NCBI GenBank assembly: GCA_019241525.1
Contig: JAFAWY010000022.1
Coordinates: 1-33,709, forward strand
Length of the DNA: 33,709 nt
Source of the DNA: Pseudonocardiales bacterium
GTDB taxonomy: Bacteria > Actinomycetota > Actinomycetes > Mycobacteriales > Pseudonocardiaceae
Direction: 5' to 3'
Below are positions 1 to 26,558 of the stretch, in pieces. How positions within the stretch are numbered: the first letter of the stretch is position 1; each line of letters begins with the position of its first letter. The notes beneath the pieces were generated by a model. It made no database searches, had not been told where the DNA came from, and saw nothing but the letters and a program-made list of their open reading frames with translations. A program made the translations under genes and the position numbers.

Positions 1-2
1 AA

Positions 3-7387: not shown

Positions 7388-7413
7388 AACGTCCTGCCCG
7401 GCACTCACATTCC
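7388..7413 (-). promoter_or_regulatory. Consensus sigma-R promoter of sigR
   Basis: On the minus strand GGAAT (7413-7409) and GTT (7390-7388) are separated by exactly 18 bp, matching the GGAAT-N18-GTT consensus of sigma-R/SigH promoters. Transcription would begin near 7380, about 100-120 bp before the sigR start. This indicates positive autoregulation of sigR-rsrA, as in Streptomyces and mycobacteria. Confidence 0.85.
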
Positions 7414-7481
7414 GCAGTCTGATCACCGTCGGTGCGCGCCGCTGATGGGTTGCGCCGATGCCGGATCTAAGCTGGTTCGCC

Positions 7482-7964: not shown

Positions 7965-8053
7965 AACATCACCGCTGGCAGCACGGCACGGCGACTACCA
8001 ATCGCAGCTGACTTTGCCGCACAGGTCCGACATGAGCACTGGGACCGTCTACG

Positions 8054-9420: not shown

Positions 9421-9460
9421 AGCCTCATCGTGGCATGGTGCCCTGCGCGATGATGGCGCC

Positions 9461-10753: not shown

Positions 10754-10881
10754 GCCGACCAGGGAGCGCACCGCGGCGCGCTCAGAGTCTCGATGAGTCG
10801 GACGTCCGGGTCCGGCCGGGCCGGAGCGGTTCTCGGCCCCGCACCAAGCGCCGTCCCGATCACTCAGACGCAGCAGCCGCG

Positions 10882-11760: not shown

Positions 11761-11789
11761 TCTGGCCGCTGGGCCGCTGGCACCGTCGT

Positions 11790-12299
11790 ATGGTGCTCGT
11801 CGAGGTGACCATCACCCACCTGGAGATGACGTCTCGTGACCAGCTCGTCGCGGGCAAGCTGCCGCCGGCTGACATCGCGCTGCACCCTGCCGGCGTGGAC
11901 GCGCTGGCACTGATCCGCTCAACCCACAACCGGATTGCCGCAGCGCATCATTGGTTAAGCCTGGGATGGTCCGAACAGCGGTGGATGAACCTGCTGGACC
12001 GGCCTGGCGTGCAGTGCTGGATCGCGCGGGTCGATGTGGACATCATCGGCTTGATAATCATGCAGCGGCATGCGCGAGGCGACGTTGAGATCACCAAATT
12101 CGGGCTGGTTCCGGAATGGGTGGGTCGAGGATTCGGCGGCCACCTGCTGACCCTGGCCACCCAGCTCGCGTGGGGCCTTGGTTCAGTGGACCGGGTGTGG
12201 CTGGCCACCACATCGATCGATCACCCGCATGCCCTGAGTAACTACCGTGCCCGTGGGTTTCGCCCGTTCCGCGTCGAGCGTGCGCCACGTCAGGTATAG
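11790..12299 (+). CDS. GNAT-family N-acetyltransferase
   Basis: A 169-aa acetyltransferase of the GNAT superfamily. The VTITHLEMTSRDQL start resembles a common actinobacterial GNAT subfamily. The acetyl-CoA-binding motif appears as FGLVPEWVGRGFGGHLLTLA, with the R-G-x-G-G turn, and a C-terminal HPHALSNYRARGF motif completes the fold. The substrate is unknown. ATG at 11790 is adopted; GTG at 11805 is possible. The gene follows rsgA after 29 bp and converges with pruA only 9 bp away, with no visible terminator. Confidence 0.85.
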   Translation: MVLVEVTITHLEMTSRDQLVAGKLPPADIALHPAGVDALALIRSTHNRIAAAHHWLSLGWSEQRWMNLLDRPGVQCWIARVDVDIIGLIIMQRHARGDVEITKFGLVPEWVGRGFGGHLLTLATQLAWGLGSVDRVWLATTSIDHPHALSNYRARGFRPFRVERAPRQV

Positions 12300-12308
12300 C
12301 CTGGACGA

Positions 12309-13940: not shown

Positions 13941-13974
13941 CGGAACCTCCCTGCTTGTCCTCCCCAAGCCCGCC

Positions 13975-14248
13975 GTGTCGGGCTCTCCTCCCCAGTGTGT
14001 CGCGCTCTTGTCCTCGGTGTGTCGCGCCCCGGTGCGCCGCGTGTCGCGCTTTCCTGCTCACCGTGTCGCTCCCCGGTGCGTGCTCTGTCGAACCATGACG
14101 CTCGGTGCCGGGTCGCTGGAGATCGCCACCGTCAATGGTGTGCAGCCGTCCCCGCGGCCGCAACAACACGGGAGCCCGACACGCCAAGCGTGAGAGCGCG
14201 ACACACCGCGCACCGGGGAGCGACACGGCGAGCAGGGAAGCGCGACAC
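13975..14248. repeat. 22-bp-phased GTGTCG array A (two facing arms)
   Basis: Left arm: GTGTCG at 13975, 13997, 14019, 14041 and 14063, plus CTGTCG at 14085, all exactly 22 bp apart and mostly continuing as GTGTCGCGC. Right arm: the complement CGACAC at 14177, 14199, 14221 and 14243, also 22 bp apart. An 86-bp spacer separates the arms. The 16 bases between cores are degenerate but tend toward pyrimidine-rich then GTGC/CTGC then CGG or CC. The right arm ends 20 bp from the stop of the DUF6912-type gene, and the left arm begins 34 bp before pruA. It is not a CRISPR: the cores are too short and the spacers resemble each other. Confidence 0.85.
14041..14248. repeat. 40-bp inverted repeat inside array A
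   Basis: 14041-14080 and the reverse complement of 14209-14248 agree at 38 of 40 positions, with differences at the 12th and 20th bases. The 128-bp centre contains further array units and the spacer. A minus-strand transcript running from the DUF6912-type gene toward pruA could fold into a 40-bp stem. This similarity far exceeds that between other units, suggesting recent duplication or selection for pairing. Confidence 0.85.
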
Positions 14249-14268
14249 GTCGGCACGAGGCGCGGGGG

Positions 14269-14772
14269 TTAGAGCAACTCAAGCAGGAAGGCAATCTCCT
14301 GGGTGGCATACCAGGCCATCTCGTGGTCCTCTGCGCTGCCAAGGGTGAACTCGGCATCTGGATCGCCGAGGTCAGCAGCATCCACAACCGCTGCCGCGGT
14401 GCGCACCGCATCCTCAGCCTCGGCCAGGTCGACGTGCACGGCGGCGACTGCGGATAGTGGTACCGGACCGGCAACCGCAACCGCGGCATCATCAAGATCA
14501 GCGCGCATCCGTACCGGCTCGACATCGGCCGCGACCACCACACGCCGCGGGAGCACCGCCGGGTTACCGTCTAGCTCGGCGGCTAGCAGCCGCAACGACG
14601 CCCGGGCGGCCTCGTTCATCGCCGCGTACTCCAGTTCCTCGGTATCCCCGGCAGCATAGGATTCGCGAAGCATCGGGGTTACGGCAAAGGCCGTGCCGGC
14701 AACCGGAACCAATTCGCCGGACTCGACGAGGCTACGCAGCGTCGCAAGCGTGGCGGGAATGTAGACCCTCAT
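14269..14772 (-). CDS. DUF6912-type conserved protein
   Basis: A 167-aa protein beginning MRVYIPATLATLRSLVESGE, a start I associate with the actinobacterial DUF6912 family. The middle (ELEYAAMNEAARASLRLLAA) is helical; the second half alternates VVVAADVEP, VPLSAVAAVHVDLAEAEDAV and DHEMAWYATQEIAFLLELL, the last resembling the conserved end of the family. Function is unknown. ATG at 14772 is favoured by this N-terminus; the frame stays open to 14820. It is divergent from the SpoU gene (108 bp) and its stop is followed after 20 bp by array A. Confidence 0.75.
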   Translation of the reverse strand: MRVYIPATLATLRSLVESGELVPVAGTAFAVTPMLRESYAAGDTEELEYAAMNEAARASLRLLAAELDGNPAVLPRRVVVAADVEPVRMRADLDDAAVAVAGPVPLSAVAAVHVDLAEAEDAVRTAAAVVDAADLGDPDAEFTLGSAEDHEMAWYATQEIAFLLELL

Positions 14773-14868
14773 CGGCGAAACGTCGCCTCTCTGTACCGGG
14801 TCCTCCACTGGCGAGAACAACGCACAAGACTAGATCACCGCCGGCCGCGACCTCCGTGGACGTCGGCT

Positions 14869-14874
14869 TACCCT
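14869..14874 (+). promoter_or_regulatory. Possible -10 element for a leaderless SpoU mRNA
   Basis: TACCCT fits the actinobacterial TANNNT -10 pattern and ends six bases before the GTG start at 14881, the spacing expected for a leaderless transcript. No Shine-Dalgarno sequence is present at the start and no clear -35 was seen. Confidence 0.4.
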
Positions 14875-14880
14875 GAGTAC

Positions 14881-15738
14881 GTGCGCTCTCCCGACGATCA
14901 GCTCGGTGGCCCGGCCGACCGGCAGGGCGCGAGCCCGAGAGACCTCTTCATCACCGTCTACGGCCGTAAACCAGTGCTGGAGGCGCTGAGCGACCCGACG
15001 CTGACCGTCGACAAGGTAATCATGGCCGTGCACGCCCGAGGGGATATCGTCGCGGAGATCATCGACGCAGCAGCGCGCCGCCAAATACCGGTGCAGCGGG
15101 CATCGGCGCACCGGGTGAAGGTCTTGGCTGGCAACGGGCGGCACGACCAGGGTGTGCTGGCTGACGTCAAGGCACCCCGCATGCGGCCGCTGGATAGCGG
15201 GTTGGCCACGCTGGGCAGCACGGCGGCGGTGCTAGTTCTCGATGCGATCACCAATCCGGCCAACGTGGGCATGATCCTGCGTACCGCCACCGCCGCCGGG
15301 ATGGATGGCGTCGTCCTGCCGCGCAGAGGGGTACCGGCGATCGATCCGCTCGTGATCAAAGCATCGGCAGGGGTGGCATTCCATGCCCCGGTGCTGCGCG
15401 CTGCCACTGCGGAGCAAGGTTGCGCCACGCTGCGCGCTGCTGGCTTCGCCGTACTCGGGCTGTCTGCCTCGGCGCCTGGAGCGCGCTCACTGTTCAACCA
15501 CGCACCACCGCCACGGGTGGCCTATGTGCTGGGCAACGAGAGCGCAGGCCTGTCCCCTGGCATCACCGCATACCTCACCGGCCGGGTCAGCATCCCGATG
15601 GCTGGCAACGTCGAGTCCCTCAACGTTGCCAGCGCCGCTGCGGTGGTGTGTTTCGACTGGGCTCGTCGACGTGCTGGCAGCTGGCCCAGTGGCCAGCGTC
15701 CCCCGCGCGGCCGTAGACATCACCAGATACCGAAGTAA
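14881..15738 (+). CDS. SpoU/TrmH-family RNA 2'-O-methyltransferase
   Basis: A 285-aa SPOUT methyltransferase. Residues about 25-100 form the substrate-binding domain (VYGRKPVLEAL, VQRASAHRVKVLAGNGRHDQ). The knotted catalytic domain shows motif 1 (DAITNPANVGMILRTATAAG), motif 2 (AYVLGNESAGLSPGI) and motif 3 (VSIPMAGNVESLNVASAAAV), which together bind S-adenosylmethionine. Such proteins methylate 2'-O-ribose in rRNA or tRNA; the target is not evident. The last 25 residues are basic and low in complexity. GTG at 14881 directly follows a TACCCT -10 candidate, suggesting a leaderless mRNA. Confidence 0.9.
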   Translation: MRSPDDQLGGPADRQGASPRDLFITVYGRKPVLEALSDPTLTVDKVIMAVHARGDIVAEIIDAAARRQIPVQRASAHRVKVLAGNGRHDQGVLADVKAPRMRPLDSGLATLGSTAAVLVLDAITNPANVGMILRTATAAGMDGVVLPRRGVPAIDPLVIKASAGVAFHAPVLRAATAEQGCATLRAAGFAVLGLSASAPGARSLFNHAPPPRVAYVLGNESAGLSPGITAYLTGRVSIPMAGNVESLNVASAAAVVCFDWARRRAGSWPSGQRPPRGRRHHQIPK

Positions 15739-15779
15739 GCCGGTAGAGCGCAAATCTGTACCCGGTCCGGCGACAGGTG

Positions 15780-15809
15780 CTGACAACGCTCTGCAACCGG
15801 ATGCATACT
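15780..15809 (+). promoter_or_regulatory. Candidate housekeeping promoter
   Basis: CTGACA (15780-15785) and CATACT (15804-15809) are spaced by 18 bp and match TTGACA/TATAAT at five and four of six positions. It lies about 145 bp before the TTG start of the DUF6459-type gene. Confidence 0.35.
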
Positions 15810-15954
15810 CAGCGCTACCGGCTCGGAGCCCCTCCTCCGACTGGTGCCCCGCGGTCCTGGCGCCGACGCCAGCGGCCGCCGCCACGGCGTCTCCGGCCCC
15901 GCCGTCGATTGATCGCGCTCACCCGCGCGCGGTCTTCCCGACGAGGAGGCTTCG

Positions 15955-16437
15955 TTGACGACCAGCATTGCTGAGCCACGTCCGCAGCAATCGCAGCGTC
16001 CCGTGCTGCGCCGCTTGGCAGACATCCTGCCGACTACCGCGCCGGTGACCACCGCACCACCTGCTGTCACAGCACTGCCGGCCACCGACCCTGCAGCGCC
16101 TGTCCTGGCTGACCGAGTGCTCCGCGCCGTGGTGGAAACGGTCCGCGGCCGGCGAGCCGCTCGGCAACTGTCCAGAGTGCTAAGTACCGACGTGCTTGAT
16201 TCCCTTCCTTCACTCCAAGCAGCGGCCGGTCATCTGCAGCCCCAGGTGCGAAAGGTGATCGCCCAGCAGCATGCCGTCGATGTGCTGGAGGCGGTCGCGG
16301 TCGTCACGCTGACCACCGGCGTTCGGGCGCTGGCCGCACGATTCGAAAAACACAGCGACAGGTGGCAGTGCACCACCTTGCAATTACGCCTCACCACTGG
16401 AGACCTGGCGGCTCGTGGCCAGCGCCGAACGTGCTGA
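15955..16437 (+). CDS. DUF6459-type Ala/Pro/Arg-rich protein
   Basis: A 160-aa protein. The first 50 residues are Pro/Thr/Ala-rich and probably disordered. The conserved part runs from ADRVLRAVVETVRGRRAARQL through LRPQVRKV-like helices to VRALAARFEKHSDRWQCTTL. This pattern matches the actinobacterial DUF6459 family found near secA (probably like Rv3235 of M. tuberculosis); its function is unknown. TTG at 15955 is preceded by GAGGAGG (15943-15949) at ideal spacing, which fixes this uncommon start. The stop at 16435-16437 falls within the first unit of repeat array B. Confidence 0.75.
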   Translation: MTTSIAEPRPQQSQRPVLRRLADILPTTAPVTTAPPAVTALPATDPAAPVLADRVLRAVVETVRGRRAARQLSRVLSTDVLDSLPSLQAAAGHLQPQVRKVIAQQHAVDVLEAVAVVTLTTGVRALAARFEKHSDRWQCTTLQLRLTTGDLAARGQRRTC

Positions 16438-16515
16438 TCCGCGCGACACAGCGCGCACCAGGGCGCGACACGCAGGGCGCACGAGCACGACACACGCGGC
16501 AGGAAGGAACGACAC
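16428..16515. repeat. 22-bp-phased GTGTCG array B (single arm)
   Basis: CGACAC cores at 16444, 16466, 16488 and 16510, exactly 22 bp apart (as GCGCGACAC at 16441 and 16463, GCACGACAC at 16485, GAACGACAC at 16507). All are in the same orientation, with GTGTCG on the minus strand. The array fills the gap between the converging DUF6459-type gene and secA and ends 14 bp from the secA stop. No opposing arm is present, unlike arrays A and C. Confidence 0.85.
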
Positions 16516-16529
16516 GCGGAGAAAAAGGG

Positions 16530-19340
16530 TCAGGAGTGAGCTGTGGTGGGGGCTCCGTGACAGCGCTTGTACTTGCGACCCGAGCCACAGGGGCAGGGCG
16601 CGTTCCGGGAGGGCTCCGCGGCGGCAGCCCCGCCATCCCCGCCACGAGTCTGCACCTCGCCGCCATCCTCGGCGGGCCCGGTGTAAGTCAGCGGGCGTGC
16701 CTCCGGCGCGGCCATGCCACCCATTCCGGCCAGCGCGGGCGCGCCAGCGGCGCCCTCGCCGGTCTGCCCGTCGATCTCGGACAGTGCCGAATCCGGCGCC
16801 GCGGCAGCGACCGCGGTCGGCGCCGGTTCGGCCGGCACCTCCGGAGCGGCCACCTGAACCTGCACGTTGAACAAGAAGCCGACCGACTCTTCTTTAAGCC
16901 CCTCGAGCAGCGCGCTGAACATTTCGAATCCCTCGCGCTTGTACTCGACCAGCGGATCACGCTGGGCCATCGCGCGCAGGCCGATGCCCTCTTTGAGGTA
17001 GTCCATCTCGTAGAGATGTTCACGCCACTTGCGATCCAGCACCGACAGCACCACCCGGCGCTCGAGTTCGCGCATCGCCTCTGGGCCGGCCATCTGCTCC
17101 AGTTCCGCCTCACGGCGGGCATACGCCGCTCTCGCATCCTCGAGCACCCCGGCCAGCAGCGTGTCCCGAGTCAGGTCCTCGGTGTTTCCGGCGATGTCCT
17201 CGTACTTGATGCCGACTGGGTACAGCGTCCGCAGCGCCGACCAGAGCTGATCGAGGTCCCAGTCCTCGACGTAGCCGTTCTCGGTGGCCCCGTTGACGTA
17301 GGCGGTCACCACATCGGTGATCATGTGTTGAACTTGGTCGCGCAGGTCCTCACCTTCAAGCACCCGCCGACGTTCGGCGTAGATCACCTTTCGCTGAAGG
17401 TCCATGACCTCGTCATATTTCAAGACGTTCTTGCGGATCTCGAAATTCTGCTGCTCGACCTGGGTCTGCGCGGACTGGATCGCCCGGGTGACCATCTTGG
17501 CCTCGATCGGAATGTCGTCATCCATCCGCAGGCGGGTCATGATGGACTCGACCAGCGGTCCGTTGAACCGGACCATGAGTTCGTCGCGCAAAGACAGGTA
17601 GAACCGAGATTCACCGGGGTCACCTTGGCGTCCGGAGCGGCCGCGCAACTGGTTGTCGATGCGCCGTGCCTCATGCCGTTCGGTGCCCAGGACGTACAGC
17701 CCGCCAAGGGCGATGACTTCCGCGGCCTCCGCCTCGGCATCGGCCCGGGCATCCGCCACCGCGGCCTCCCAGGCCGCCTCGTACTCTTCCGGAGTTTCCA
17801 CCGGATCCAACCCGCTGGCTCGGAGCACTTGGTCGGCGCGGAATTCCGGGTTGCCACCCAGCATGATGTCGGTCCCCCGGCCGGCCATGTTGGTGGACAC
17901 GGTGACTGCGCTCTTGCGGCCAGCCTCGGCGACGATCAACGCTTCCTTCTCGTGCTGCTTGGCGTTGAGCACCGAGTGCGGGATCGCGGCAGCGACCAGC
18001 GCCTTGGACAGGTACTCCGAACGTTCCACGCTGGCGGTGCCGACCAGGATCGGCTGGCCCTTGGTGTGGCGCTCGGCGATATCTGCCACCACCGCTTTGA
18101 ACTTGGCCTCTTCGGTCTTGTAAACCAGGTCGCCGTGATCCTTACGGATCATGGGTTTATTCGTGGGGATCGACACGACGCCCAACTTGTAGATCTGCAG
18201 CAGCTCGGCAGCTTCGGTCTGGGCGGTACCGGTCATGCCAGCGAGCTTTTCGTAAAGCCGGAAGTAGTTCTGCAGCGTGATCGTCGCCAAGGTCTGGTTC
18301 TCGGCCTTGATCTCGACCTTCTCCTTGGCCTCGATGGCCTGGTGCATGCCCTCGTTGTAGCGCCGGCCATGCAGCACCCGGCCGGTGAACTCGTCGACGA
18401 TGAGCACCTCACCATTGCGGACGATGTAGTCCTTGTCTTTGGTGTAGAGCTCCTTGGCCTTGAGCGCATTGTTGAGATAACCGACCAGCGGAGTGTTCGC
18501 TGCTTCATACAAGTTCTCGATGCCCAGCTGATCCTCGATGAGCGCAACGCCGTCCTCGGTGACGCCGACCGTGCGCTTGCGCTCATCCACCTCGTAGTGC
18601 ACGTCGCGCTTGAGCATCGGAGCCAATCGGGCGAACTCGCCGTACCAGCGGGACGATTGGTCAGCGGGTCCAGAAATGATCAAGGGAGTACGCGCCTCGT
18701 CGATGAGGATGGAGTCGACTTCATCAACGATGGCGTAACTGTGCCCGCGCTGGACGCAGTCCGCCAGGCTCCAAGCCATATTGTCCCGCAGGTAGTCGAA
18801 GCCGAACTCGTTGTTCGTGCCATAGGTGATGTCGGCGTGGTAGGAAGCCCGCCGCTCGTCGGGAGTCATCTGCGACAAGATCACCCCGACACTGAGGCCG
18901 AGGAACCGGTGCACCCGGCCCATCCACTCCGCGTCGCGCTTGGCGAGGTAGTCATTGACCGTGACGACGTGCACGCCGTTGCCAGCCAGTGCGTTGAGGT
19001 AGGCAGGCAGCACGCAGGTCAGGGTCTTGCCCTCGCCGGTGCGCATTTCAGCTACGTTGCCGAGATGCAGCGCGGCACCACCCATGAGCTGCACATCGAA
19101 GTGCCGCTGGCCCAGCGTGCGCTTAGCAGCCTCGCGGACCACCGCGAACGTCTCAGGCAGCAGATCATCCAGTGACTCGCCCTTGGCGTGGCGGCTGCGG
19201 AACTCTTCGGTCTTCGCCCGCAAGTCGGCGTCGGACAGGTCGCAGACATCGGCTTCCAGGCCGTTGATGTGGTCAGCGATGGCGCGTAACCGGCGGACAG
19301 TCTTGTGCTCGCCGGCGCGGAGCAGTCGGGACAGGACCAC
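16530..19340 (-). CDS. secA: Preprotein translocase ATPase SecA
   Basis: A 936-aa SecA, the ATPase that drives proteins through SecYEG. Walker A is TGEGKT (101-106) and Walker B VDEVD (205-209). Other landmarks are [83 protein letters not shown] and [18 protein letters not shown]. The end carries an intact SEC-C zinc motif (C916, C918, C927, H928 in [13 protein letters not shown]), which I recall as absent from mycobacterial SecA1. The linker before it is Ala/Pro/Gly-rich. The start is GTG at 19340. Synteny with hpf and lpqB-mtrBA identifies it as the housekeeping SecA1. Confidence 0.97.
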
Positions 19341-19455
19341 CTGAGGGACCTCACTCGTATCGGGACACTCGCATCAGGCGCGGGTCGGTCTGCGCGCCAT
19401 GGTATGCCCAGCACCAGTGGTGACGTCATCCGCGCAGCTCTGGGGTCCGCGGCAA

Positions 19456-19526
19456 ACCATAATCGCCGCCTGCGTGCGGTACGGGAGACCTGATGTCGTC
19501 CCTAGCACGCAGACGGCGACGATGGT
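19456..19526 (-). terminator. Imperfect 22-bp hairpin between hpf and secA
   Basis: Arms 19456-19477 and 19505-19526 pair at 19 of 22 positions around a 27-base loop. On the minus strand the hairpin starts about 10 bases after the hpf stop and lies about 115 bases before the secA start. It probably terminates or attenuates hpf transcription. Confidence 0.6.
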
Positions 19527-19535
19527 ATGCGAAGA

Positions 19536-20210
19536 CTAGACGAGCTGGATCACGCCGTAGTCGAAGCCGTGCCGGCGGTACACCACGCTGGGCAGCCCGG
19601 AGTCGGCGTCGGAGAACAGATAAAAGTCATGGCCCACGAGTTCCATCTCGTAGAGCGCCTCGTCGACGGTCATAGGCGTGGCAGAGTGCCGCTTACGCCG
19701 GACGATGCGACCCGGTCCATCGAGGTCCGGCGATTCCCACCGCTGTGTGGGCACCAGGTAGTCGACTTGAGGGTCAGGTGGCTCGACCATATCCATCTCA
19801 TCGCGATGGCCGTTGGTCTGCTCTTCAGTGTCAGTGATCGTGGGGGCTAGGACAGTCGCCAGCGATGCGGTGGCCTCGGCGACAGAAGTGGGATGGCGGC
19901 GCCCGTAGTGCACCTTGTGCCGATCGGCGACTCGGCGTAGCCGGTTGTCTAGCTTGTTGACCGCCGCATCCAGCGCGGTGTAGAAGTCGGAACCACATGC
20001 CTCTGCACGAACGACTTGGCCGCGGCACCGGCCGGTGATCTCTACCCGCTGGCAATTCTTGGACTGCCGCGGATTGCGTTCGTGGAACAGCTCGACGTCG
20101 TAGTGGTCGGCTTTCTGGTCATACCGTTCGACGCGGGCGAGCTTCTCGGTAACGTGCACCCGGTAATGATCGGGCACCTCGACGTTACGACCCTTCACGA
20201 CAATATTCAC
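19536..20210 (-). CDS. hpf: Ribosome hibernation-promoting factor, long form
   Basis: A 224-aa long-type HPF. The N-terminal S30AE domain (about 1-110) begins VVKGRNVEVPDHYRVHVTEK and includes the basic KLDNRLRRVADRHKVHYGRR. An acidic linker (about 115-160) leads to the C-terminal dimerisation domain (KRHSATPMTVDEALYEMELV, GHDFYLFSD, VVYRRHGFDYGVIQL). Long HPF pairs 70S ribosomes into inactive 100S dimers, or in mycobacteria stabilises 70S particles. The start is GTG at 20210 with GGAGGTCGCCCT in front. The 268-bp gap upstream probably holds its promoter. Confidence 0.95.
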   Translation of the reverse strand: MNIVVKGRNVEVPDHYRVHVTEKLARVERYDQKADHYDVELFHERNPRQSKNCQRVEITGRCRGQVVRAEACGSDFYTALDAAVNKLDNRLRRVADRHKVHYGRRHPTSVAEATASLATVLAPTITDTEEQTNGHRDEMDMVEPPDPQVDYLVPTQRWESPDLDGPGRIVRRKRHSATPMTVDEALYEMELVGHDFYLFSDADSGLPSVVYRRHGFDYGVIQLV

Positions 20211-20439
20211 AGGGCGACCTCCTCGCGTTGTCGTCCAATAGGGACTTCATCGACGCCGAAGGCAGTGATCGTTTCCACGTGAGGCTCAAGCAGCAGCTCG
20301 GGGGGCCGCTCGCTTGGATCACTCGGCCACCGGCGCCAGGACCATGGCTTTCTCGCCTCCTCCCGAACGCCTCAGCAATGCTGATGCCCGGACGGTAGTC
20401 CCCCGGCCGGTCTCTCGCCAGAGCCTGGCGTGCCCAGTC

Positions 20440-20457
20440 CCACGGTCAACACTGTGG
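20440..20457. promoter_or_regulatory. Operator-like palindrome upstream of hpf
   Basis: CCACGGT and ACTGTGG pair at six of seven positions around CAAC. On the minus strand it includes TTGACC, a possible -35 hexamer for hpf about 240 bp before its start, though no convincing -10 was found. The rest of the comF-hpf gap (20211-20478) shows nothing else recognisable. Confidence 0.3.
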
Positions 20458-20478
20458 TTGGTATCACGGAGCTGCCTC

Positions 20479-21192
20479 TTACGACGGCGGGTGACATCCA
20501 GCGGCTGCGAGCACCACGATGGCGGACACTGCGACACCCGTCTGGAGCAGCGTCGCCGCGCATGCTGCAGCAGTCGTGCCGGTGGTGACGACATCGTCGA
20601 CCAACACGACGGGTATGCCGCGGGGCGGTAAACCCGCTGGCCGGATTAACACCCGGCCAGCCAGATTGGCTCGCCGGGCCGCCCGCGCCAAGCCGACCGA
20701 GTCACGGACCCCGCGGCCCATGCGCAACGCGGGAGCAACGGCTGCGGCTACCTCCACCCCTGCCAGCGCGGCAGCCGCCTGCCGCGCCAGCAATTCCACA
20801 TGCTGTCCCCCACGCCGCGCCGCCGCGCTGGCGCGAGACGGCACGGGCACCATCCATACGGCCTCCGCTGCGCAGTCTGCATCCAGACTGCGGAGTTGGA
20901 GCAGCCCGGACGCGAGCGCGGTGCCCAGTGGTGTGGCGACGTCGCGGCGGCCTCGCTCCTTGTAGGCCAAGAGGGCGGCACGGAGGCAGCCCTGGTAGCT
21001 GCCTAGGGCATAGACCGGTGGGGCGGCCGGGCAACACGGCGGGCGAACCTGGATCGGCGCGCTCAGCAGCGCTGCACAGCGAGGGCATAGCGCAGCGCCG
21101 GGCGCGTTGCACCCGCCGCACTCGACAGGCAGCAGCAGGTCCAGCAGGTGGCGCAACACGCGCCCAAGCTTGCCCCTACCCGGGTGCGGCAC
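20479..21192 (-). CDS. ComF-family phosphoribosyltransferase-like protein
   Basis: A 237-aa ComF/GntX-type protein. A zinc-finger-like stretch near the N-terminus (VECGGCNAPGAALCPRC) precedes VYALGSYQGCLRAALLAYKE, MVPVPSRASAAARRGGQHVE and the phosphoribosyl-pyrophosphate loop VVLVDDVVTTGTTAAACAAT. ComF proteins take part in DNA uptake in naturally competent bacteria; in actinobacteria the role is unproven. The start is GTG at 21192; an internal GTG eleven codons later would also retain the zinc finger. It follows lpqB after 85 bp, the same order as Rv3244c-Rv3242c in M. tuberculosis. Confidence 0.9.
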   Translation of the reverse strand: MPHPGRGKLGRVLRHLLDLLLPVECGGCNAPGAALCPRCAALLSAPIQVRPPCCPAAPPVYALGSYQGCLRAALLAYKERGRRDVATPLGTALASGLLQLRSLDADCAAEAVWMVPVPSRASAAARRGGQHVELLARQAAAALAGVEVAAAVAPALRMGRGVRDSVGLARAARRANLAGRVLIRPAGLPPRGIPVVLVDDVVTTGTTAAACAATLLQTGVAVSAIVVLAAAGCHPPS

Positions 21193-21277
21193 CGCGATTT
21201 ACGGCCCGATACCGGCGCAGCTGTGCACATCGGCCCAGCCATCCCCAGCCTTAGTACTGCACGCTTGTCCTCACGGA

Positions 21278-22993
21278 TCAGCCCGGATAAAGCGGTACTG
21301 AGCCCGGTCCGATCCCGCCGAGCAGCGGGTTCCACACCTCCTGGGTATCCGAATAGGCCCACAGGCCAGTGGCATCGGCCACCAGAATTTCCCGGCCAGG
21401 GGCGGCGACGATATCCGTCAGCGGGCCGGTCAGGTTGGTGCTGGACAGTTGCCGCCGGGTCAGGCCGTCCACGGACACCGAGAAAACCTGCGGGGACGGT
21501 CCGGCTGAGGCCACGACCAGAAGTTCTGGACGGGCCCAGTCCACACTCACGGCAGCCGGCAAGCTTCCGTCGCGCAGCACTTGCGGATGGCGCAGGCTCA
21601 CCGTGCCTGACTCAGTCACCACCGCAGCCACCACCACTCGACCATCGATCACCGCGACCACCCGGACCCCGTCCCGGGACAGCCGCAGTTGCGAGATGCT
21701 GCCCAGCCGGGTTAGTTCCCTGGCGTCGACCGAATACGCCAGTGGCGGACCCGTTCCCGACAGCGCCACGCCCATGACCGAGCGCCCGTTGACTACCGTC
21801 CACAACTCGGTCCCTGACGGCCGCCAGGTCGGCCGGCTTATCGTCTGCGCCTCCAGTGGCGCCACCGCGAGATCTCCGTCGACCGGACCCACCCGCAGCT
21901 GAGGGTGCCCGTCCGGGCCGGCGACAACCGCCGCCAACGTCTCCCCGTTCGGATTCGAGCGAGCAGCGCTGAGCACGGTAAGCCGACCATCTCCGGCGGG
22001 TCCTGGTACCGGTGCGTTGTTGAGGCTACGCAACCGCCCACCAACAACTACTTCGCCGGGAACGTCTGACCGCGGGCCGGTGGACGGTGCGTAGGAAGCG
22101 ATGTCAGCCGGGCGCAGCTCAGGCTGCCCGGCCATGAGCGGCTCGCCGTCAGCAAGCAACCGCAACGGGGTGGGAACCAGGCCGTCCAAGGAGCCGACGA
22201 TCTGCGCGGCAACCAGCCGCCGTTGCGCCTCGGTCAGCGTATCCACCCCGCTGAGATTGATCACAGTCCGACCGGAGCGGCTAACCAGCACATTAGATCG
22301 GGGGCGCACGCCCTCGGGGATCGCCGTCCGGACTGCGCCAGCCAGCCGTTGAGACGGCCCGGCGAGCAACAGGTCTAGCACCCGCCCCGGGAGCGTGGCC
22401 GCAGGTTGCGCAGGTACCCAGCGCAAGTCGGCAACCAACGTGCCGCGGTCGGGGTCGACGAAACAGACCCGGACCTGGCGGTAGTTGCGCTGCACCGCAC
22501 TGGCTTCCACAAGCACCCCCGGCGGGGGATTGGAGATACGCCACTCGCCGTGCTCGCTGACCACGTCCAGCGGCACGGAGAACGTTCCCGCCGCCGGTAT
22601 GAAGCTGCCGTCCGCGGTCAGCGTGCCCAGCCGGGAACCGCCCACCCGGATGCGGCGGACTCCGTCGTTGGGGCCAGTCTCCGGCGCGGCGCCGGGTGCG
22701 TCCTCGATCACGGTCACACCGGCACGGTCGTCCCAGCTGGCCGCGGCGTTTCTCGTCAGAAAAGCACGAGCCGCGGCGTGCCCGTTGGCCGCGCTACCGG
22801 TAGCTTCGATGAATTCCCGGACCAGCCGGAACGGGTCCACGCCATGCTCGGGACCGGGTGGCGGCGCCAGTTGCGCTCCGACCGGCATGGACCGGATCAC
22901 CTCGAGATCGGAACTCGCCGGAATCGCGGCACATCCGGCAAGCGCAGCACAACCAACAATGATCACGATGGTGAGCCGGCGTCCGCGCATCAT
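21278..22993 (-). CDS. lpqB: Lipoprotein LpqB
   Basis: A 571-aa exported lipoprotein. The signal peptide (TIVIIVGCAALAGC) ends in the lipobox LAGC with the acylated cysteine at residue 21. The following GerMN-type domain covers about residues 50-320 (FVDPDRGTLVADLRWVPAQP, VRTAIPEGVRPRSNVLVS), and the C-terminal half is a beta-propeller-like LpqB domain (SRDGVRVVAVIDGRVVVAAV). In mycobacteria LpqB interacts with the sensor MtrB and modulates MtrA signalling. The ATG overlaps the mtrB stop (ATGATG), so the genes are translationally coupled. Confidence 0.95.
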   Translation of the reverse strand: MMRGRRLTIVIIVGCAALAGCAAIPASSDLEVIRSMPVGAQLAPPPGPEHGVDPFRLVREFIEATGSAANGHAAARAFLTRNAAASWDDRAGVTVIEDAPGAAPETGPNDGVRRIRVGGSRLGTLTADGSFIPAAGTFSVPLDVVSEHGEWRISNPPPGVLVEASAVQRNYRQVRVCFVDPDRGTLVADLRWVPAQPAATLPGRVLDLLLAGPSQRLAGAVRTAIPEGVRPRSNVLVSRSGRTVINLSGVDTLTEAQRRLVAAQIVGSLDGLVPTPLRLLADGEPLMAGQPELRPADIASYAPSTGPRSDVPGEVVVGGRLRSLNNAPVPGPAGDGRLTVLSAARSNPNGETLAAVVAGPDGHPQLRVGPVDGDLAVAPLEAQTISRPTWRPSGTELWTVVNGRSVMGVALSGTGPPLAYSVDARELTRLGSISQLRLSRDGVRVVAVIDGRVVVAAVVTESGTVSLRHPQVLRDGSLPAAVSVDWARPELLVVASAGPSPQVFSVSVDGLTRRQLSSTNLTGPLTDIVAAPGREILVADATGLWAYSDTQEVWNPLLGGIGPGSVPLYPG

Positions 22994-24816
22994 GGACGCC
23001 CCGGCTCGACCGGCACCGCGGTATCCCCCACCTCAGATTCCGCCCTGTCGGATCGCCCAATCACGGGATCCACTACTTCGGGTTCTGTTTCCTGGTCCTC
23101 TGCTTCATGGGGTTCTGCTTTCGGGGGTTGTGCCACCACAGGATCCGCTCCAACGGGACCTGACGCCGGGCTCGAGGTACGGGTGGCGTCGTCGGGTCCG
23201 AGTGGCAATGGACTGCTGGTCAGCTCCTCGCCGTGCCTGCGTGGCAACGTCAGCCGGAAGGCGCTGCCCTGCCCGGGAGCACCCCAGGCTTGTAACCAGC
23301 CCCCGTGGAGCCGGGCATCTTCCAGGCTGATCGACAAGCCCAGCCCGGTGCCTCCGGTACGCCGGTCCCGCGAGGGATCGCCGCGCCAGAAGCGGTTGAA
23401 CACGAGCTCCTCCTGACCGGGCTTGAGCCCAACGCCATGATCGCGCACCAGCACGGCCACTGCGTCGGCGTTCGCGGCAACCGTCATCCGGACCGGGCGT
23501 CCTTCTCCATGATCCAGAGCGTTAGTGAGCAGGTTGCGCACGATCCGCTCGACACGCCGCGGGTCGATCTCGGCTTCCACCTCCTCAGCCGGCTGCTCCA
23601 GTTCGAGCGGGGTGCCGGCGCGGTCGGCCACGGCGCGCACCGAGGCCACCGCCGCCGCCACGGTGGTCCGCACGTCGACGGGCTCGAGTTGGAGCTCGGC
23701 AACACCGGCGTCGACCCGGGAGATCTCCAGCAGATCGGCAAGCAACGCCTCGAACCGGTCAAGTTCACGCACCAGTAGTTCCGTCGGGCGGTGCAGCACC
23801 GGGTGCAACTGGTCCCGCGAGTCATACAGCAGATCCGCGGCCATCCGCACGGTCGTCAACGGGGTACGCAGCTCGTGGGAGACGTCTGAGGTGAAACCCC
23901 GCTGCAACTCACCGAACTCCTCCAGCTGGCGAATCTGCCGCTGAATGCTGGCGGCCATTTCGTTGAACGAGGTGCCCAGCCGGGCGATGTCGTCCTCCCC
24001 GACCACCGGCATCCGCTCGTCAAGATGGCCATCAGCGAAGCGTTCGGCGATCTCGGCCGCCTGCCGGATCGGCACCACCACCTGGCGAGTGACCAGGCTG
24101 GCGATGCCCGCGATCAGCACCAGGAGCACCACACCGCCGACCACCAAGGTGGACTGCACCAGGGTCAACGTGCGTTGTTCAGCGGTAAGCGGGAACAGCA
24201 GGTAGAGCTGCATGGTGCGACCCGCGCTGGCCACCGGCATGCCGACAACCAGCATGGTGACCGTCGCTGAGCCTCGACGCACCGTAGTGATCTTGTGGGC
24301 GAGCGCGCCACGTTCCACTGCGGACTGCAATACTGCGGGAACGTCTTCCAGGGGGCCGATTTTCTGCCCGGTGCCGGCCTCTCCGGATGGCCCACCGCCA
24401 TCGACCAGCACTGGCTCGAAGGCACCGGCGTTGGCCGTGGTGGGACCGCCCCCGGTCGGATCCGGGTTGGTTAAACGATCGATCGCGGTGGTCAGCCGGG
24501 CGGCCAGCGACGCCGAGGTGGGATCCACGGCGCCAAGTTCGGACTCCACCAGAACCCTGCTGTTGTCGGCCTGCAACAGCGCGGCCTGCGTCTTGTTCTC
24601 GATCAGCCGCTGGGCGAGCTGGGCCTGCAACAGCATGCCCAGCACCAGCACGACCGTTGACGACAGCGCCACGGTGCTGCTCACTACTCGGACCTTCAAG
24701 GATCGGCGCCATAGCGCGCCCGCCGCCATGGTGAGCTCGCCGGCTGCCACGGAGGCATCGGTGGCCCGTTCCGTCAGCGCGGTCAGCGCAGGCCGACCCC
24801 TGAACCGGGGACTCAC
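22990..24816 (-). CDS. mtrB: Sensor histidine kinase MtrB
   Basis: A 608-aa membrane kinase of the MtrA/MtrB system, which controls cell division, wall metabolism and osmotic responses. Transmembrane helix 1 spans about residues 45-68, an extracytoplasmic domain follows to about 220, and helix 2 spans 222-244. A HAMP domain comes next (VVPIRQAAEIAERFADGHLD), then the dimerisation helix with H314 in FTSDVSHELRTPLTTVRMA, and the ATPase lobe (LLTNALDHGEG, VRDHGVGL, GGTGLGLSISLEDARLHGG). The last 75 residues are a Pro/Glu/Asp-rich tail of unknown role. It starts 13 bp after mtrA. Confidence 0.95.
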   Translation of the reverse strand: MSPRFRGRPALTALTERATDASVAAGELTMAAGALWRRSLKVRVVSSTVALSSTVVLVLGMLLQAQLAQRLIENKTQAALLQADNSRVLVESELGAVDPTSASLAARLTTAIDRLTNPDPTGGGPTTANAGAFEPVLVDGGGPSGEAGTGQKIGPLEDVPAVLQSAVERGALAHKITTVRRGSATVTMLVVGMPVASAGRTMQLYLLFPLTAEQRTLTLVQSTLVVGGVVLLVLIAGIASLVTRQVVVPIRQAAEIAERFADGHLDERMPVVGEDDIARLGTSFNEMAASIQRQIRQLEEFGELQRGFTSDVSHELRTPLTTVRMAADLLYDSRDQLHPVLHRPTELLVRELDRFEALLADLLEISRVDAGVAELQLEPVDVRTTVAAAVASVRAVADRAGTPLELEQPAEEVEAEIDPRRVERIVRNLLTNALDHGEGRPVRMTVAANADAVAVLVRDHGVGLKPGQEELVFNRFWRGDPSRDRRTGGTGLGLSISLEDARLHGGWLQAWGAPGQGSAFRLTLPRRHGEELTSSPLPLGPDDATRTSSPASGPVGADPVVAQPPKAEPHEAEDQETEPEVVDPVIGRSDRAESEVGDTAVPVEPGRP

Positions 24817-24829
24817 AACGGTGCGGTTC

Positions 24830-25507
24830 TCACGATGTACCGGCCTTGTACCCGACGCCGCGCACGGTGAGCACTACCTCAGGGTGCTCGGGATCCCGTT
24901 CAATCTTGGAACGAAGCCGCTGAACGTGCACGTTGACCAGACGGGTGTCCGCGGCGTGCCGGTAACCCCATACCTGCTCGAGGAGCACCTCCCGGGTGAA
25001 CACCTGGCGCGGCTTGCGGGCTAACGCGACAAGCAAGTCGAACTCCAGCGGAGTCAGGGAGATTGGCTCCCCGTCTCGGCTGACCTGGTGACCCGGTACG
25101 TCAATGGTGAGATCCCCGATGGTGAGTTGCTCGGCGGGCTCCGGGTCAGTACGGCGTAACCGGGCACGCAACCGCGCCACGAGCTCTTGGGTTTTCGGCG
25201 GCTTGATCATGTAGTCGTCCGCACCGGACTCCAGACCCAAGACCACATCGACCGTGTCGCTCTTCGCTGTCAGCATCACGATCGGGATACCCGATTCGGC
25301 GCGGATCGCCTTGCAGACATCGATGCCACTCATGCCCGGCAGCATGAGATCGAGTAACACCAGATCAGGCTTGAGTTCACGCATCGCGGGCAGCGCCTTG
25401 GGACCCTCGGAGACCACCGCGGTCTCAAAGCCCGCCTGGCGTAGCGCGATGGCCAACATCTCCGCCGCCGCAGGGTCGTCCTCAACTACGAGTACACGAG
25501 CTGCCAT
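24830..25507 (-). CDS. mtrA: Response regulator MtrA
   Basis: A 225-aa OmpR/PhoB-type regulator. The receiver has the acidic pair in VVEDDPAAAEML, phospho-acceptor D53 (LVLLDLMLPGMSG), T80 and K102. The winged-helix domain begins near 132 and includes SLTPLEFDLLVALARKPRQV, FTREVLLEQVWGYRH and VNVHVQRLRSKIERDPEHPE. MtrA controls chromosome replication, division and wall hydrolase genes. At the receiver's usual K-P-F motif the sequence reads DYMIKPPKTQE, so Phe is replaced by Pro at 104. ATG at 25507 matches the family start; the open frame further upstream is not coding. Confidence 0.96.
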   Translation of the reverse strand: MAARVLVVEDDPAAAEMLAIALRQAGFETAVVSEGPKALPAMRELKPDLVLLDLMLPGMSGIDVCKAIRAESGIPIVMLTAKSDTVDVVLGLESGADDYMIKPPKTQELVARLRARLRRTDPEPAEQLTIGDLTIDVPGHQVSRDGEPISLTPLEFDLLVALARKPRQVFTREVLLEQVWGYRHAADTRLVNVHVQRLRSKIERDPEHPEVVLTVRGVGYKAGTS

Positions 25508-25553
25508 AGGACCATCGTGGCATTGCTCGTGACGGTTTCCCCGGTCGGGCGGC

Positions 25554-26204
25554 TTACCAGCCGAGAGCCTGCGCCACCACCTCGGCCAGCCCGTCGATCG
25601 CAGCCCCCGTCCCATCGACGGGTGACCAGGGTGCAAGCCATCCTTGGGCAGCAAGCCCGTCATAAACAGCCGCGCAGCGTGCCTGCAGTGCACCATCGGT
25701 TTCGTAACAGTCCTTGGGACGGGCACTATCCGCCGCTGCCCGCTGATCAGCCCGGCGCGCAGCAATGTCCAGTGGTACCCGCAACAGCAGCTGGAGATCG
25801 GGCACCGGCACGCCGAACCGGTCTACCTCTAAGGCCCGGACCCACTCGACAAAGGGGCCGTCAGCGCCCTCGTGCAGCCGTGCGGCGCCGTAGGCCGCGT
25901 TGGAACCGACGTATCGATCCAGCAGCACCACGTCGTAGCGGGCTCGTAGGGCGCGCAGTTGCCCAGCGGCGTCTCGCCGGTCCAGAGCGAAAAGCACCGC
26001 CATGCCGTGAACCGAGCTGACCAGGTCACCAAGCCTGCCGTGCAGAGCATCACGGACAAGGTCGGCGTGGACATCGGCGTCGTAACGGGGGAACGCCATC
26101 CTGGTGACCGTCACTCCCCGTGCATTGAGTTCGGCGACCAGCCCGTCGGCGAGGGTGCGCTTACCCGCCCCGTCCAGACCCTCGATGACCACCAACCGCC
26201 CCAC
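25554..26204 (-). CDS. tmk: Thymidylate kinase
   Basis: A 216-aa kinase that converts dTMP to dTDP. The P-loop is EGLDGAGKRT (residues 8-17). FPRYDADVHADLVRDALHG and DLVSSVHGMAVLFALDRRDA form the dTMP site, and LLDRYVGSNAAYGAARLHE contains the D-R-Y motif. VPLDIAARRADQRAA is part of the lid region. The mycobacterial-type G-A-G-K-R-T loop supports the family call. The start is taken as GTG at 26204, giving the expected N-terminus (VGRLVVIEG). It lies 46 bp before mtrA, as in M. tuberculosis. Array C fills the 373 bp upstream. Confidence 0.94.
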   Translation of the reverse strand: MGRLVVIEGLDGAGKRTLADGLVAELNARGVTVTRMAFPRYDADVHADLVRDALHGRLGDLVSSVHGMAVLFALDRRDAAGQLRALRARYDVVLLDRYVGSNAAYGAARLHEGADGPFVEWVRALEVDRFGVPVPDLQLLLRVPLDIAARRADQRAAADSARPKDCYETDGALQARCAAVYDGLAAQGWLAPWSPVDGTGAAIDGLAEVVAQALGW

Positions 26205-26248
26205 GACCGCACACGCTATCCCCGCGCGTAGCCCCCTCTCCGTCCGGT

Positions 26249-26558
26249 GTGTCGCTGCCCCATGCCTCGTGAGTCGGTCCCTCCCGCCTGGCGTGTCGGT
26301 CCCTCCCGCCTGGCGTGTCGGGCGTTCGCGCTCGGCGTGTTCGGCGCAGTGCGAGTCGCCTCCAACAGCGGTGCGGCACAACCCGGCTCTGTCGATGTCG
26401 GCTACGCCGCCTCGTTGCTCTTCACGGGTCCGACCCCCTGCGCTTGGTGATCGGCAGCAAACAACGTCGACACGTGCACAAGGACGGGACAGGCCGTGCA
26501 CGAGAACGCAACACAACGTGCACAAGAACGCGACACGACGTGCACGAGGGCACGACAC
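26249..26558. repeat. 22-bp-phased GTGTCG array C (two facing arms)
   Basis: Left arm: units at 26249, 26271 (GAGTCG), 26293, 26315 and 26337 (GTGTTC), each 22 bp apart; the units at 26271 and 26293 are identical apart from one base. Right arm: CGACAC-type cores at 26487 (GGACAG), 26509 (CAACAC), 26531 and 26553, 22 bp apart, plus CGACAC at 26468, 19 bp from the next. Right-arm units share a GTGCAC palindrome. The arms are not direct complements of each other over long stretches, unlike array A. The right arm ends 19 bp from the biotin carboxylase stop; the left begins 44 bp from the tmk start. The stretch between arms (26359-26467) holds no recognisable gene. Confidence 0.82.

Follow-up and report, generated by a model that had tools for sequence, protein, structure and literature searches.

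REP and BIME elements of bacteria are intergenic repeats that lie at gene ends, form facing pairs and occur in many copies; the REP unit is a hairpin that RAYT transposases move, and a chromosome-organising role has been proposed for BIMEs. The BOX elements of pneumococcus follow the scheme boxA-boxB(n)-boxC, the two ends being distinct and the middle units varying in number. In eukaryotes, and there in rDNA only, the Sal-box terminators bound by TTF-I are arranged in tandem behind the rDNA gene and stop the polymerase in an orientation-dependent manner; we know of no bacterial counterpart of these terminators. The window analysed in this work, which is the whole stretch of 33,709 nt, carries arrays of a GTGTCG core repeated every 22 bp. 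No description of such arrays was found in the open literature, subscription papers and preprints being beyond our reach. The exact strings of the units do occur in three papers of unrelated title, and a word search of the Saccharothrix espanaensis genome paper (PMC3469384) did not return the word "repeat".

The arrays resemble REP/BIME in their intergenic location at gene ends, facing pairs and copy number, and they differ by the absence of a hairpin unit and of RAYT. A BIME-like family, one of the possibilities raised in the preliminary description, is matched by the facing pairs and by some elements that have been copied, but not by the unit or by the enzyme: RAYT (Y1_Tnp) was detected in 0/11 array-bearing genomes at E <= 0.001, and in 2/11 array-free genomes. 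Distinct end modules around middle units of varying number, the BOX scheme, were found in one genus only (g21), and the facing symmetric arms, the 22-bp units and the anchoring to stop codons are unlike BOX. With the Sal-box terminators, the arrays share the tandem and polar arrangement behind genes, the bound protein being, in our case, a putative one. Variable unit number is also common to the GGGNATC heptamer repeats of Xanthomonas and Nostoc, which have a unit of 7 and form quadruplexes (PMC4692102), while the unit here is 22 and a G-quadruplex pattern was found on either strand in 1/149 arrays, fewer than in shuffled sequences. The TAACTGA direct repeats of Beggiatoaceae, cyanobacteria and Bacteroidetes likewise form many intergenic sets of patchy distribution, are suspected to be binding sites and have neighbours without a functional theme; the majority in the studied genome is placed just upstream of start codons (PMC4679880), and the abstract mentions no 22-bp register. 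BldC is a small actinobacterial protein which assembles head to tail and directionally on direct repeats of varying number (PMC5859096), but its sites are 9 bp long and AT-rich (AATTXXXX(C)), unlike the 22-bp arrays.

Arrays of the window and the genes that bear them

An array was defined as at least three cores spaced by exactly 22, each with at most one mismatch to GTGTCG and at least two of them exact. The window contains five arrays at three sites (Table 1), which together have 21 cores, 18 of these without mismatch, and 100 dinucleotide-preserving shuffles of it yielded none. In the genome from which the window comes (G000), the three-core pattern was matched 42 times and the reversed pattern 0 times, far above this control for chance. 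All three sites of the preliminary description are present at essentially the positions given there; the coordinates of sites 1 and 3 agree, and site 2 begins at 16444 instead of 16428. The number of units, put there at about 23, is reached only when degenerate flanking units are included by eye. Site 2 is a single array, while sites 1 and 3 are each a facing pair, with 86 and 188 nt, respectively, between the counted cores of the facing arms. The minus-sense copies had been said to begin about 15-21 nt after the stop codon of a minus-strand gene, and the measured distances (20, 14 and 19 nt) agree well with this; the plus-sense halves of sites 1 and 3 are far arms. The far arms begin upstream of predicted gene starts, 34 nt from that of the aldehyde dehydrogenase gene (minus strand) and 44 nt from that of the thymidylate kinase gene, which is an odd place for a terminator.

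The genes that flank site 1 are separated by 328 nt here and by 13-85 nt in five array-free sister species. The gene whose end bears site 2 is presumably secA, as judged from its C-terminal zinc motif. The 20 host genes that were scanned are unrelated to each other and mostly of housekeeping character. No Rfam family matched the window at the gathering threshold.

Table 1. Arrays, intervening stretches and flanking genes in the window
Feature	Position	Strand	Remarks
Aldehyde dehydrogenase gene, downstream of site 1	12309..13940	-	
Site 1, far arm	13975..14090	+	6 cores (5 exact), 22-bp spacing
Site 1, centre between facing arms	14091..14176	.	No match to other G000 centres; partly alike in G009 orthologue
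Site 1, stop-proximal arm	14177..14248	-	4 exact cores; first core 20 nt past DUF6912 stop
Leader from DUF6912 stop codon to first core	14249..14268	-	C-rich
DUF6912 gene, 3' end bears site 1	14269..14808	-	
Site 2, solo array	16444..16515	-	4 exact cores; first core 14 nt past secA stop
secA, 3' end bears site 2	16530..19340	-	Name from C-terminal zinc motif
Thymidylate kinase gene, downstream of site 3	25554..26204	-	
Site 3, far arm	26249..26342	+	4 cores (3 exact) up to 26320, plus degenerate fifth
Site 3, stretch between counted arms	26321..26508	.	Degenerate units on both sides, unique middle
Site 3, stop-proximal arm	26509..26558	-	3 cores (2 exact), further degenerate units; first core 19 nt past biotin carboxylase stop
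Biotin carboxylase domain gene, 3' end bears site 3	26578..27915	-	

Register, polarity and turnover in related genomes

Among consecutive exact cores at most 70 nt apart in the stretches taken from G000, 79 of 97 steps measure 22, five measure 44, three 21 and one 23. Arrays of other periods, from 8 to 39, were not found in these stretches, themselves chosen by their 22-bp hits. The near-constant spacing with drifting filler is well borne out, and the 22-bp register is kept at other loci and in relatives. The idea that 22 bp would place a protein on one face of the helix holds only approximately, as simple arithmetic puts the repeat about 34 degrees beyond two turns of 10.5 bp; strict helical phasing of the unit was rejected, 22 not being 21.

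At orthologous gene ends of G000 and its nearest relative, G009, the cores are 96.6% identical (a figure inflated by the reliance of array detection on the cores), the fillers 65.7% and the coding DNA 90.1%; random unit pairs are 55.0% identical. Filler thus turns over while the phase persists, and the number of units also changes with the register kept. At least two phased cores are present in G009 at 16 of 17 orthologous array ends; the stretches of both genomes were chosen around array hits, which inflates this retention, and since 12 of the 16 G009 ends could have selected their own stretch, the fair figure is 4 of the 5 ends that could not. At the secA end, G009 has a four-unit array at the same place as site 2, with changed filler. 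The centres of facing pairs in the two genomes match between orthologues only, and that of site 1 has no match among the other pair centres of G000 and is partly alike in the orthologous G009 element. The facing gaps fall into no clear size classes. No clearly new array site was seen between the two genomes, although stretches chosen by arrays could show few. One G009 locus (L065) was counted as two arrays, in two registers.

As regards position, 25 of 38 arrays of G000 start between -5 and 30 nt past a stop codon in the sense orientation, a range reached by 405/6600 (6.1%) random intergenic placements, the genes having been called with a codon-score script of our own instead of a standard caller. 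The association with minus-strand stops noticed earlier thereby generalises: in most cases an array has the sense orientation of the gene whose stop precedes it. Arrays are either solo and polar or arranged in facing pairs, a facing order that is in part a consequence of stop anchoring itself. Solo arrays near one stop only are sense in 12 cases and antisense in 1 in G000, and in 13 and 2, respectively, in G009. In Amycolatopsis antarctica, 23/30 arrays lie at most 100 nt from a stop; arrays follow stops in 21/32 cases in Kutzneria and in 7/8 in the genome G127, and in G696, from another family, 7/8 are stop-anchored, some of them overlapping the stop codon itself. On the other hand, Pseudonocardia TRM90224 has GTGTCG arrays of which 0/8 follow stops, and 323/378 gene ends have no core in the first 120 nt past the stop, even in stretches chosen for their arrays.

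The core of the family as a whole is G-A/T-GTC-C/G, with GTGTCG in the window's genome; variants by lineage are GTGTCG, GAGTCG and GAGTCC, and many relatives carry GAGTC cores. The wider core GWGTCS gave matches in 88 of 390 family genomes. Arrays are present in one of ten sister species within the genus of the window's genome and in few members of the large genus g15, and one genome of another family (G696) is array-rich. In another search, 80 of 104 stretches were listed, and the non-actinobacterial ones (15 examined) were set aside as unrelated repeats. Two arrays of Saccharothrix luteola (L089 and L138), both at contig ends, look like one array, and the named loci of Kutzneria and Kibdelosporangium overlap with another set of stretches. 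In some arrays, neighbouring units are identical.

Helical steps were measurable in genus g21 only, where, in most facing pairs, the distance between the arms follows steps of about 10 bp, about one helical turn. A pattern that allowed inner dyads of 28-58 bp, with the classes counted by hand, gave 40-42 bp in 48, 50-51 bp in 8 and 37 bp in 1 among 57 of 172 matches listed; a wider pattern, applied to 23 loci, gave 40-41 bp in 18, 50 in two, 60 in one, and 37 and 39 once each. Convergent elements of this genus are at most 17 nt from both stops in 9/11 cases, and the 22 elements analysed have GARTTCAACGCTC as their inner unit, flanked on either side by 0-5 units. Middles at least 80% identical make up 5/253 pairs, against 0 in shuffles, which indicates that whole elements have been copied, and a near copy of a short middle is present in 9/23 elements. 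Spreading is shown by these near-copied elements, and the argument from helical spacing is weakened by them. In g21, Amycolatopsis and Kutzneria, the arms of an element resemble each other no more than arms taken from separate elements do; in G000 and G009 they do so slightly more. Units within one arm are more alike than those from different pairs, and this held in each of the four sets measured.

Mobile elements and RNA structure

The ends of Tn7/Mu-type transposons contain 22-bp transposase sites. The corresponding transposase (PF09299) is absent from G000 and present in 5/11 array genomes and 4/11 array-free ones, so that it does not track the arrays. LAGLIDADG homing sites were rejected likewise: PF14528 (LAGLIDADG_3) was found in 8/13 array genomes and 10/13 array-free ones, and not in the array genomes G000, G009, G146, G222 and G696. 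A MITE with a conserved interior is at odds with the unrelated centres in G000 and G009; in g21, where centres are partly copied, the exclusion is incomplete.

Covariation of base pairs is not clear in the array units; in G009, some columns far apart pair slightly above shuffled ones (0.96 vs 0.89). Between arms there is little covariation, if any, so that an RNA hairpin under selection is unlikely. The mean z of the best 50-nt fold is 0.02 to -1.02 at array ends and -0.37 to -0.90 at other ends, the convergent array ends of G000 folding slightly better than other convergent ends (-1.02 vs -0.51). An RNA hairpin or cruciform was rejected on these grounds, with no clear covariation in units or between arms and no consistent excess of folding; so was an intrinsic terminator, as hairpins are not clearly enriched and no T run was seen by eye past the arrays. 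Replacement of a hairpin terminator by the array at secA is unproven: z falls below -2 in only 3/8 array-free sister 3' ends, and also in the array-bearing G009. The leaders between stop and array are C/T-rich, and in G000 and G009 the first 100 nt past the stop have an A content of 4-6% at array ends and 18-20% at other ends whose gap is 100 or more, the C content being 40-42% and 32-33%, respectively; this A-poverty is not common to array units of other genera.

A proposed gene-end element and its rivals

The explanation we favour, with a probability of about 0.4, is a gene-end DNA element that would be bound in 22-bp register by a putative protein and act on the polymerase as a polar roadblock or termination aid. 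On asymmetric sites such as the core, the protein would assemble head to tail, with one protomer or dimer per 22 bp, and since arrays usually start from a few to about 40 nt from the stop and point away from the gene, the assembly would be oriented with respect to transcription. Where arrays form facing pairs, which happens between convergent genes and also at some co-directional junctions, the two assemblies probably come together over the centre. The target would be DNA and not RNA; the nucleoprotein array may act on RNA polymerase leaving the gene and so affect transcript ends, and facing pairs would make the roadblock bidirectional, with neighbouring genes insulated from each other. The phased protein-binding array of the preliminary description gains support from the kept phase and from the helical steps in g21, the binding itself being predicted; of its alternative of a 3'-end or termination element, the 3'-end part stands, with arrays in sense just past stops, and the termination part is not helped by hairpins, which are not clearly enriched. 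A more ambitious version, which we regard as doubtful, is an undescribed system in which a dedicated protein would polymerise directionally on stop-anchored 22-bp arrays to end or insulate transcription, facing arrays being joined in helical register, and core preference and filler changed by lineage; it would be a bacterial parallel to protein-bound tandem terminators. Against the gene-end reading speak the patchy distribution, which would fit a host system and a recent invader equally well, the coreless majority of gene ends and the arrays of TRM90224 away from stops.

The main rival is a selfish dispersed repeat without host function, which would spread itself by insertion or conversion with tandem duplication and survive where it is least harmful, past stops. 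It accounts for the patchy distribution, for the junction of site 1, short in five sisters and occupied here by a facing pair, for the whole elements copied in g21, for the likeness of units within an arm in four sets and for identical adjacent units. The copied elements, together with the retention bias, lowered our estimate for the gene-end reading and raised that for the selfish repeat, which nevertheless appears unlikely: the centres in G000 and G009 match between orthologues only, no link to a RAYT or a Mu/Tn7-type transposase was found, no clearly new site separates the two genomes (in stretches that could reveal few), and harmlessness explains neither the tight distance to stops nor the polarity of solo arrays. 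Action at the RNA level, by sense 3'UTR repeats for a sequence-specific single-strand RNA-binding protein or by strong Rho loading sites that set transcript ends or mRNA stability, would agree with the sense polarity past stops, the C/T-rich leaders, the frequent YC dinucleotides and the A-poor, C-rich array ends of G000 and G009. We consider it quite unlikely, as an invariant 6-bp core at exact spacing exceeds what Rho is known to need, Rho is to our knowledge near-universal while the arrays are patchy, the far arms are in antisense, often with no stop of a gene close by, the dyad steps of about 10 bp point to B-form DNA, and the A-poverty is missing from units of other genera.

A chromosome-organising site that places a nucleoid protein, gyrase or condensin loader where transcription units end would agree with the fixed register, the facing pairs between convergent genes and the mostly housekeeping hosts. 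It is improbable, for the sense polarity of solo arrays would not be explained by an architectural protein that lacks polarity, and only part of the gene ends bears an array. Even less can be said for arrays of WhiA sites. The motif of Streptomyces WhiA, GACAC, is bound by a monomer (PMC3781837), and its reverse complement, GTGTC, is contained in every GTGTCG core, but not in the GAGTC cores of many relatives. Moreover, the end of the WhiA helix-turn-helix domain (TKDAVAGRIRRLLAMA) is identical in ten domains read in frame, which come from array-free genomes as well as from those whose core is GTGTCG, GAGTCG or GAGTCC. The domain is present in 4/4 of the array-free genomes examined, and none was found in the array-bearing G009. 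WhiA does not track the arrays, and we regard it as a highly improbable array protein.

The manner in which transcription ends in GC-rich actinobacteria is poorly understood. If the gene-end reading is true, actinobacteria of antibiotic-producing genera would end a set of housekeeping genes by a protein-bound DNA array, with no hairpin, and the arrays would offer a direct handle on gene ends, with defined DNA as bait and natural presence or absence between close species. Even if the arrays are selfish, a repeat that holds its phase and its anchoring to stop codons over many genera, while its sequence turns over, would be an uncommon sort of genomic passenger.

The 22-bp register and its distribution

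The preliminary description had reported GTGTCG cores at 22-bp spacing at three intergenic sites of the window, and all three are present. Under a fixed definition (at least three cores, each with at most one mismatch to GTGTCG and at least two exact, spaced by exactly 22 bp), the window holds five arrays comprising 21 cores, 18 of them exact, versus no array in 100 dinucleotide shuffles. Three exact cores matched 42 times in the whole genome (4.72 Mb, 148 contigs) and two exact cores 117 times; the backwards pattern gave 0 and 5. In 428 kb of this genome, composed of the window and 21 stretches around genome matches, 38 arrays were found at period 22 and none at other periods from 8 to 39; since the stretches were picked by their 22-bp matches, this result demonstrates the absence of slippage and is no independent discovery of the number 22. 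Shuffled core words yielded zero or one array per draw in the same DNA (20 draws, 16 distinct). One array in G009 (Centralia_MAG_342, a near relative) carries two GTGTCG words per unit (13 + 9 bp), with the period still 22.

The spacing is also kept in relatives. Of 390 family genomes, 32 (in 10 of 46 genera) contain four cores with no more than two mismatches to GTGTCG, and a GWGTCS core (at most one mismatch) extends this to 88 genomes and 17 genera; many carriers have tens to about 300 matches versus mostly none in the reversed control (maximum 21, in G357), and those of the 88 with one or two matches may reflect chance or unrelated repeats. The family is taken to be Pseudonocardiaceae, since two carriers considered below, Amycolatopsis antarctica and Kutzneria viridogrisea, belong to it. 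In the own genus one of ten other species has arrays. A class-wide draw of 296 genomes, which includes the own genome and one other family member, contained ten with a match: besides the own genome only G696, from another family, is array-rich (38+20 matches versus 4 in the control), and the remaining eight have one or two matches each.

Placement after stop codons

As for position relative to stop codons, the proximity first noticed in the window extends to the genome, where arrays are anchored in the sense direction after stops. A gene 3' end lies upstream of and sense to the array in 32 of 38 cases, always within 100 nt (median 19 nt), and 25 of the 38 are found at -5 to 30 nt from the stop, as against 405 of 6600 random intergenic placements (6.1%); a C/T-rich leader separates the stop from the first core. 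Of the six exceptions, half are solo arrays and the other half belong to facing pairs, including the far arms of window sites 1 and 3. In G009, 23 of 27 arrays have a sense gene 3' end upstream, with one locus entering the count as two arrays of different register. Solo arrays with only one stop nearby run in the sense of that gene end in 12 of 13 cases in the own genome and 13 of 15 in G009, and nine and three further solo arrays, respectively, lie between two close convergent stops. All 12 cases of opposed arrays less than 400 nt apart in the two genomes are facing, a set that includes several mutual orthologues and two cases with a gene between the arms; between convergent genes this order is entailed by stop anchoring. 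One facing pair forms a perfect inverted repeat, both 28-nt arms being identical on opposite strands, unlike the other pairs examined. Directly before the array of a clpC-type gene lies a hairpin that resembles a terminator by eye, so array and hairpin can coexist.

The 20 array-bearing genes scanned against Pfam, out of 32 listed, are unrelated to each other and include glutamine synthetase and genes of the hisA, proB, panB, clpC and alpha-ketoglutarate dehydrogenase types; the name secA (window site 2) derives from a C-terminal motif.

Loci of other genera, which come from the genome scan and further family genomes and have weaker gene calls, follow the same rule. Arrays lie in sense no more than 100 nt from a stop in 23 of 30 cases in Amycolatopsis antarctica, 4 of 7 in Saccharothrix and 6 of 7 at Kutzneria and Kibdelosporangium loci. 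A further set, which shares some loci with the first, gave 21 of 32 in Kutzneria viridogrisea stretches, 7 of 8 in G127, 4 of 8 in g27 and 4 of 6 in G246. Further counts are 3 of 6 in G100, 7 of 11 in G128, 2 of 4 at four other actinobacterial loci, and 7 of 8 in G696, where the stop codon can belong to the first unit. The exception is Pseudonocardia sp. TRM90224, in which none of eight GTGTCG repeats closely follows a stop; its arrays, by eye without the C-rich leader, may be a different repeat family.

Positions of arrays and associated features
Feature	Genome or locus	Position	Remark
Window site 1	window	13975-14248	DUF6912 / aldehyde dehydrogenase genes
Window site 2	window	16444-16515	secA
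Window site 3	window	26249-26558	biotin carboxylase / thymidylate kinase
Array with two words per unit	L065 (G009)	9526-9610	
Hairpin before array	L048 (G000:C100)	11797-11850	own genome, clpC-type gene
Perfect inverted repeat	G000:C127	30222-30289	own genome
Small gene at site 3 junction	L238 (G001:C104)	within 1-14895	array-free sister; label by eye
Small gene at site 3 junction	L237 (G005:C11)	within 5000-24900	array-free sister; label by eye
TRM90224 arrays	L103, L110, L112, L126, L127, L132, L137, L162		GTGTCGACTCACCGTGCCGGAR arrays at 22 bp
g21 near-identical-middle subfamilies	L285, L297, L286, L294 and others		e.g. AGAACAGTCGATCTTGTACT in G120

Turnover of units and copying of facing elements

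Among 17 evaluable orthologous ends (those whose orthologue lies within the G009 stretches analysed; an 18th runs off its contig), 16 show two or more phased cores in each genome and one keeps a single core. This retention is inflated, as 12 of these 16 could themselves have caused their G009 stretch to be chosen; the array is kept at four of the five ends unable to do so, including secA and DUF6912. Identity between the two genomes is 90.1% in coding DNA, 96.6% in cores (biased upward by core-based detection), 65.7% in fillers and 55.0% in random unit pairs, and unit numbers often differ. Thus, where an array is kept, the register stays and the units turn over.

The spacer between the DUF6912 and aldehyde dehydrogenase genes measures 13-85 nt in array-free sisters (five of five loci with both genes, among eight sisters), versus 328 nt in the own genome and about 325 nt in G009, where a facing pair occupies it. 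The biotin carboxylase-thymidylate kinase junction is shorter than 60 nt in G007 and G010 and holds other DNA, 0.5 to 1.2 kb long, in G001, G005 and G006, which makes it less clear than the DUF6912 junction. In G001 a small gene starting MPDILIRDVPDG, by eye resembling a ribbon-helix-helix antitoxin, stands where the own genome has site 3, and in G005 an apparent 3' part of the same small gene lies beside the stop.

The strongest mutual information within units of the own genome, Amycolatopsis and Kutzneria joins mainly near columns (8-9, 11-13, 13-14, 19-20, 20-22) and does not indicate stems; in G009 units the distant pairs 16-22, 8-17 and 8-22 pair slightly more than shuffled, perhaps owing to tandem copies. 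Folding at array 3' ends of the own genome and G009 is similar to that at other ends (mean fold z 0.02 and -0.45 versus -0.90 and -0.51 at co-directional ends, -1.02 and -0.47 versus -0.51 and -0.37 at convergent ones). Within genomes, the two arms of an element resemble each other no more than arms drawn from different elements in genus g21 (0.71 versus 0.79, for the unit adjoining the inner one), Amycolatopsis (0.643 versus 0.656) and Kutzneria (0.573 versus 0.614), with the slightly opposite result in G009 (0.538 versus 0.466) and the own genome (0.544 versus 0.519).

In g21 the inner end of the element is the unit GARTTCAACGCTC, and facing units form a dyad, TTCAACGCTC-N-GAGCGTTGAA. The dyad is confined to g21, where 11 genomes have it out of 386 searched. 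Its total length, counted by hand at the 57 distinct places listed of 172 (pattern allowing 28-58), is 40 in 21, 41 in 25, 42 in two, 50 in three, 51 in five and 37 in one; at 23 element loci, with slightly varied ends and lengths up to 68 allowed, it is 40 in eight, 41 in ten, 50 in two, and 37, 39 and 60 in one each. Such increments of roughly 10 bp are consistent with B-DNA. In 9 of 11 convergent g21 elements the two stops lie no farther than 17 nt from the outer cores. Taken together, the arms, dyads and stop distances favour proteins on DNA that would be in contact across the dyad.

A serious rival holds that the arrays are a self-spreading, selfish repeat. Near copies exist for 9 of the 23 g21 middles (an identity of 80% or more is reached by 5 of 253 pairs and by no pair in shuffles), so that part of the constancy of dyad length is due to common descent, and the near-identical subfamilies show copying of whole facing elements within and between genomes. 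Equal-length g21 middles have a mean identity of 47%, and the centres of facing pairs in the own genome and G009 are unrelated except between orthologues.

Candidate proteins and interpretation

For the reading as a gene-end element bound by protein, head-to-tail assembly on direct repeats has a precedent in the host phylum, Actinomycetota, in BldC (PMC5859096). RAYT (Y1_Tnp) was present in 0 of 11 array genomes versus 2 of 11 others, a Mu/Tn7-type transposase domain in 5 of 11 versus 4 of 11 (none in the own genome), and LAGLIDADG_3 in 8 of 13 versus 10 of 13. WhiA, as a monomer, is reported to bind GACAC (PMC3781837); in ten genomes read in frame its DNA-binding domain has an identical end, whichever core they carry, and no such domain was detected in G009, an array carrier. 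None of these four is a demonstrated specific factor.

No prior description of these arrays was found in the open literature, the sole literature covered. The closest published patterns found are heptamer repeats located near stops in Xanthomonas and Nostoc (PMC4692102) and TAACTGA repeats (PMC4679880); neither abstract refers to a 22-bp register or to a facing architecture. At the level of sequence, register, stop anchoring and polarity are established properties of the arrays. Binding of a protein to them is a proposal with fair support, and an effect of the arrays on transcription, with less support than binding, may be proposed for the gene ends that carry them.
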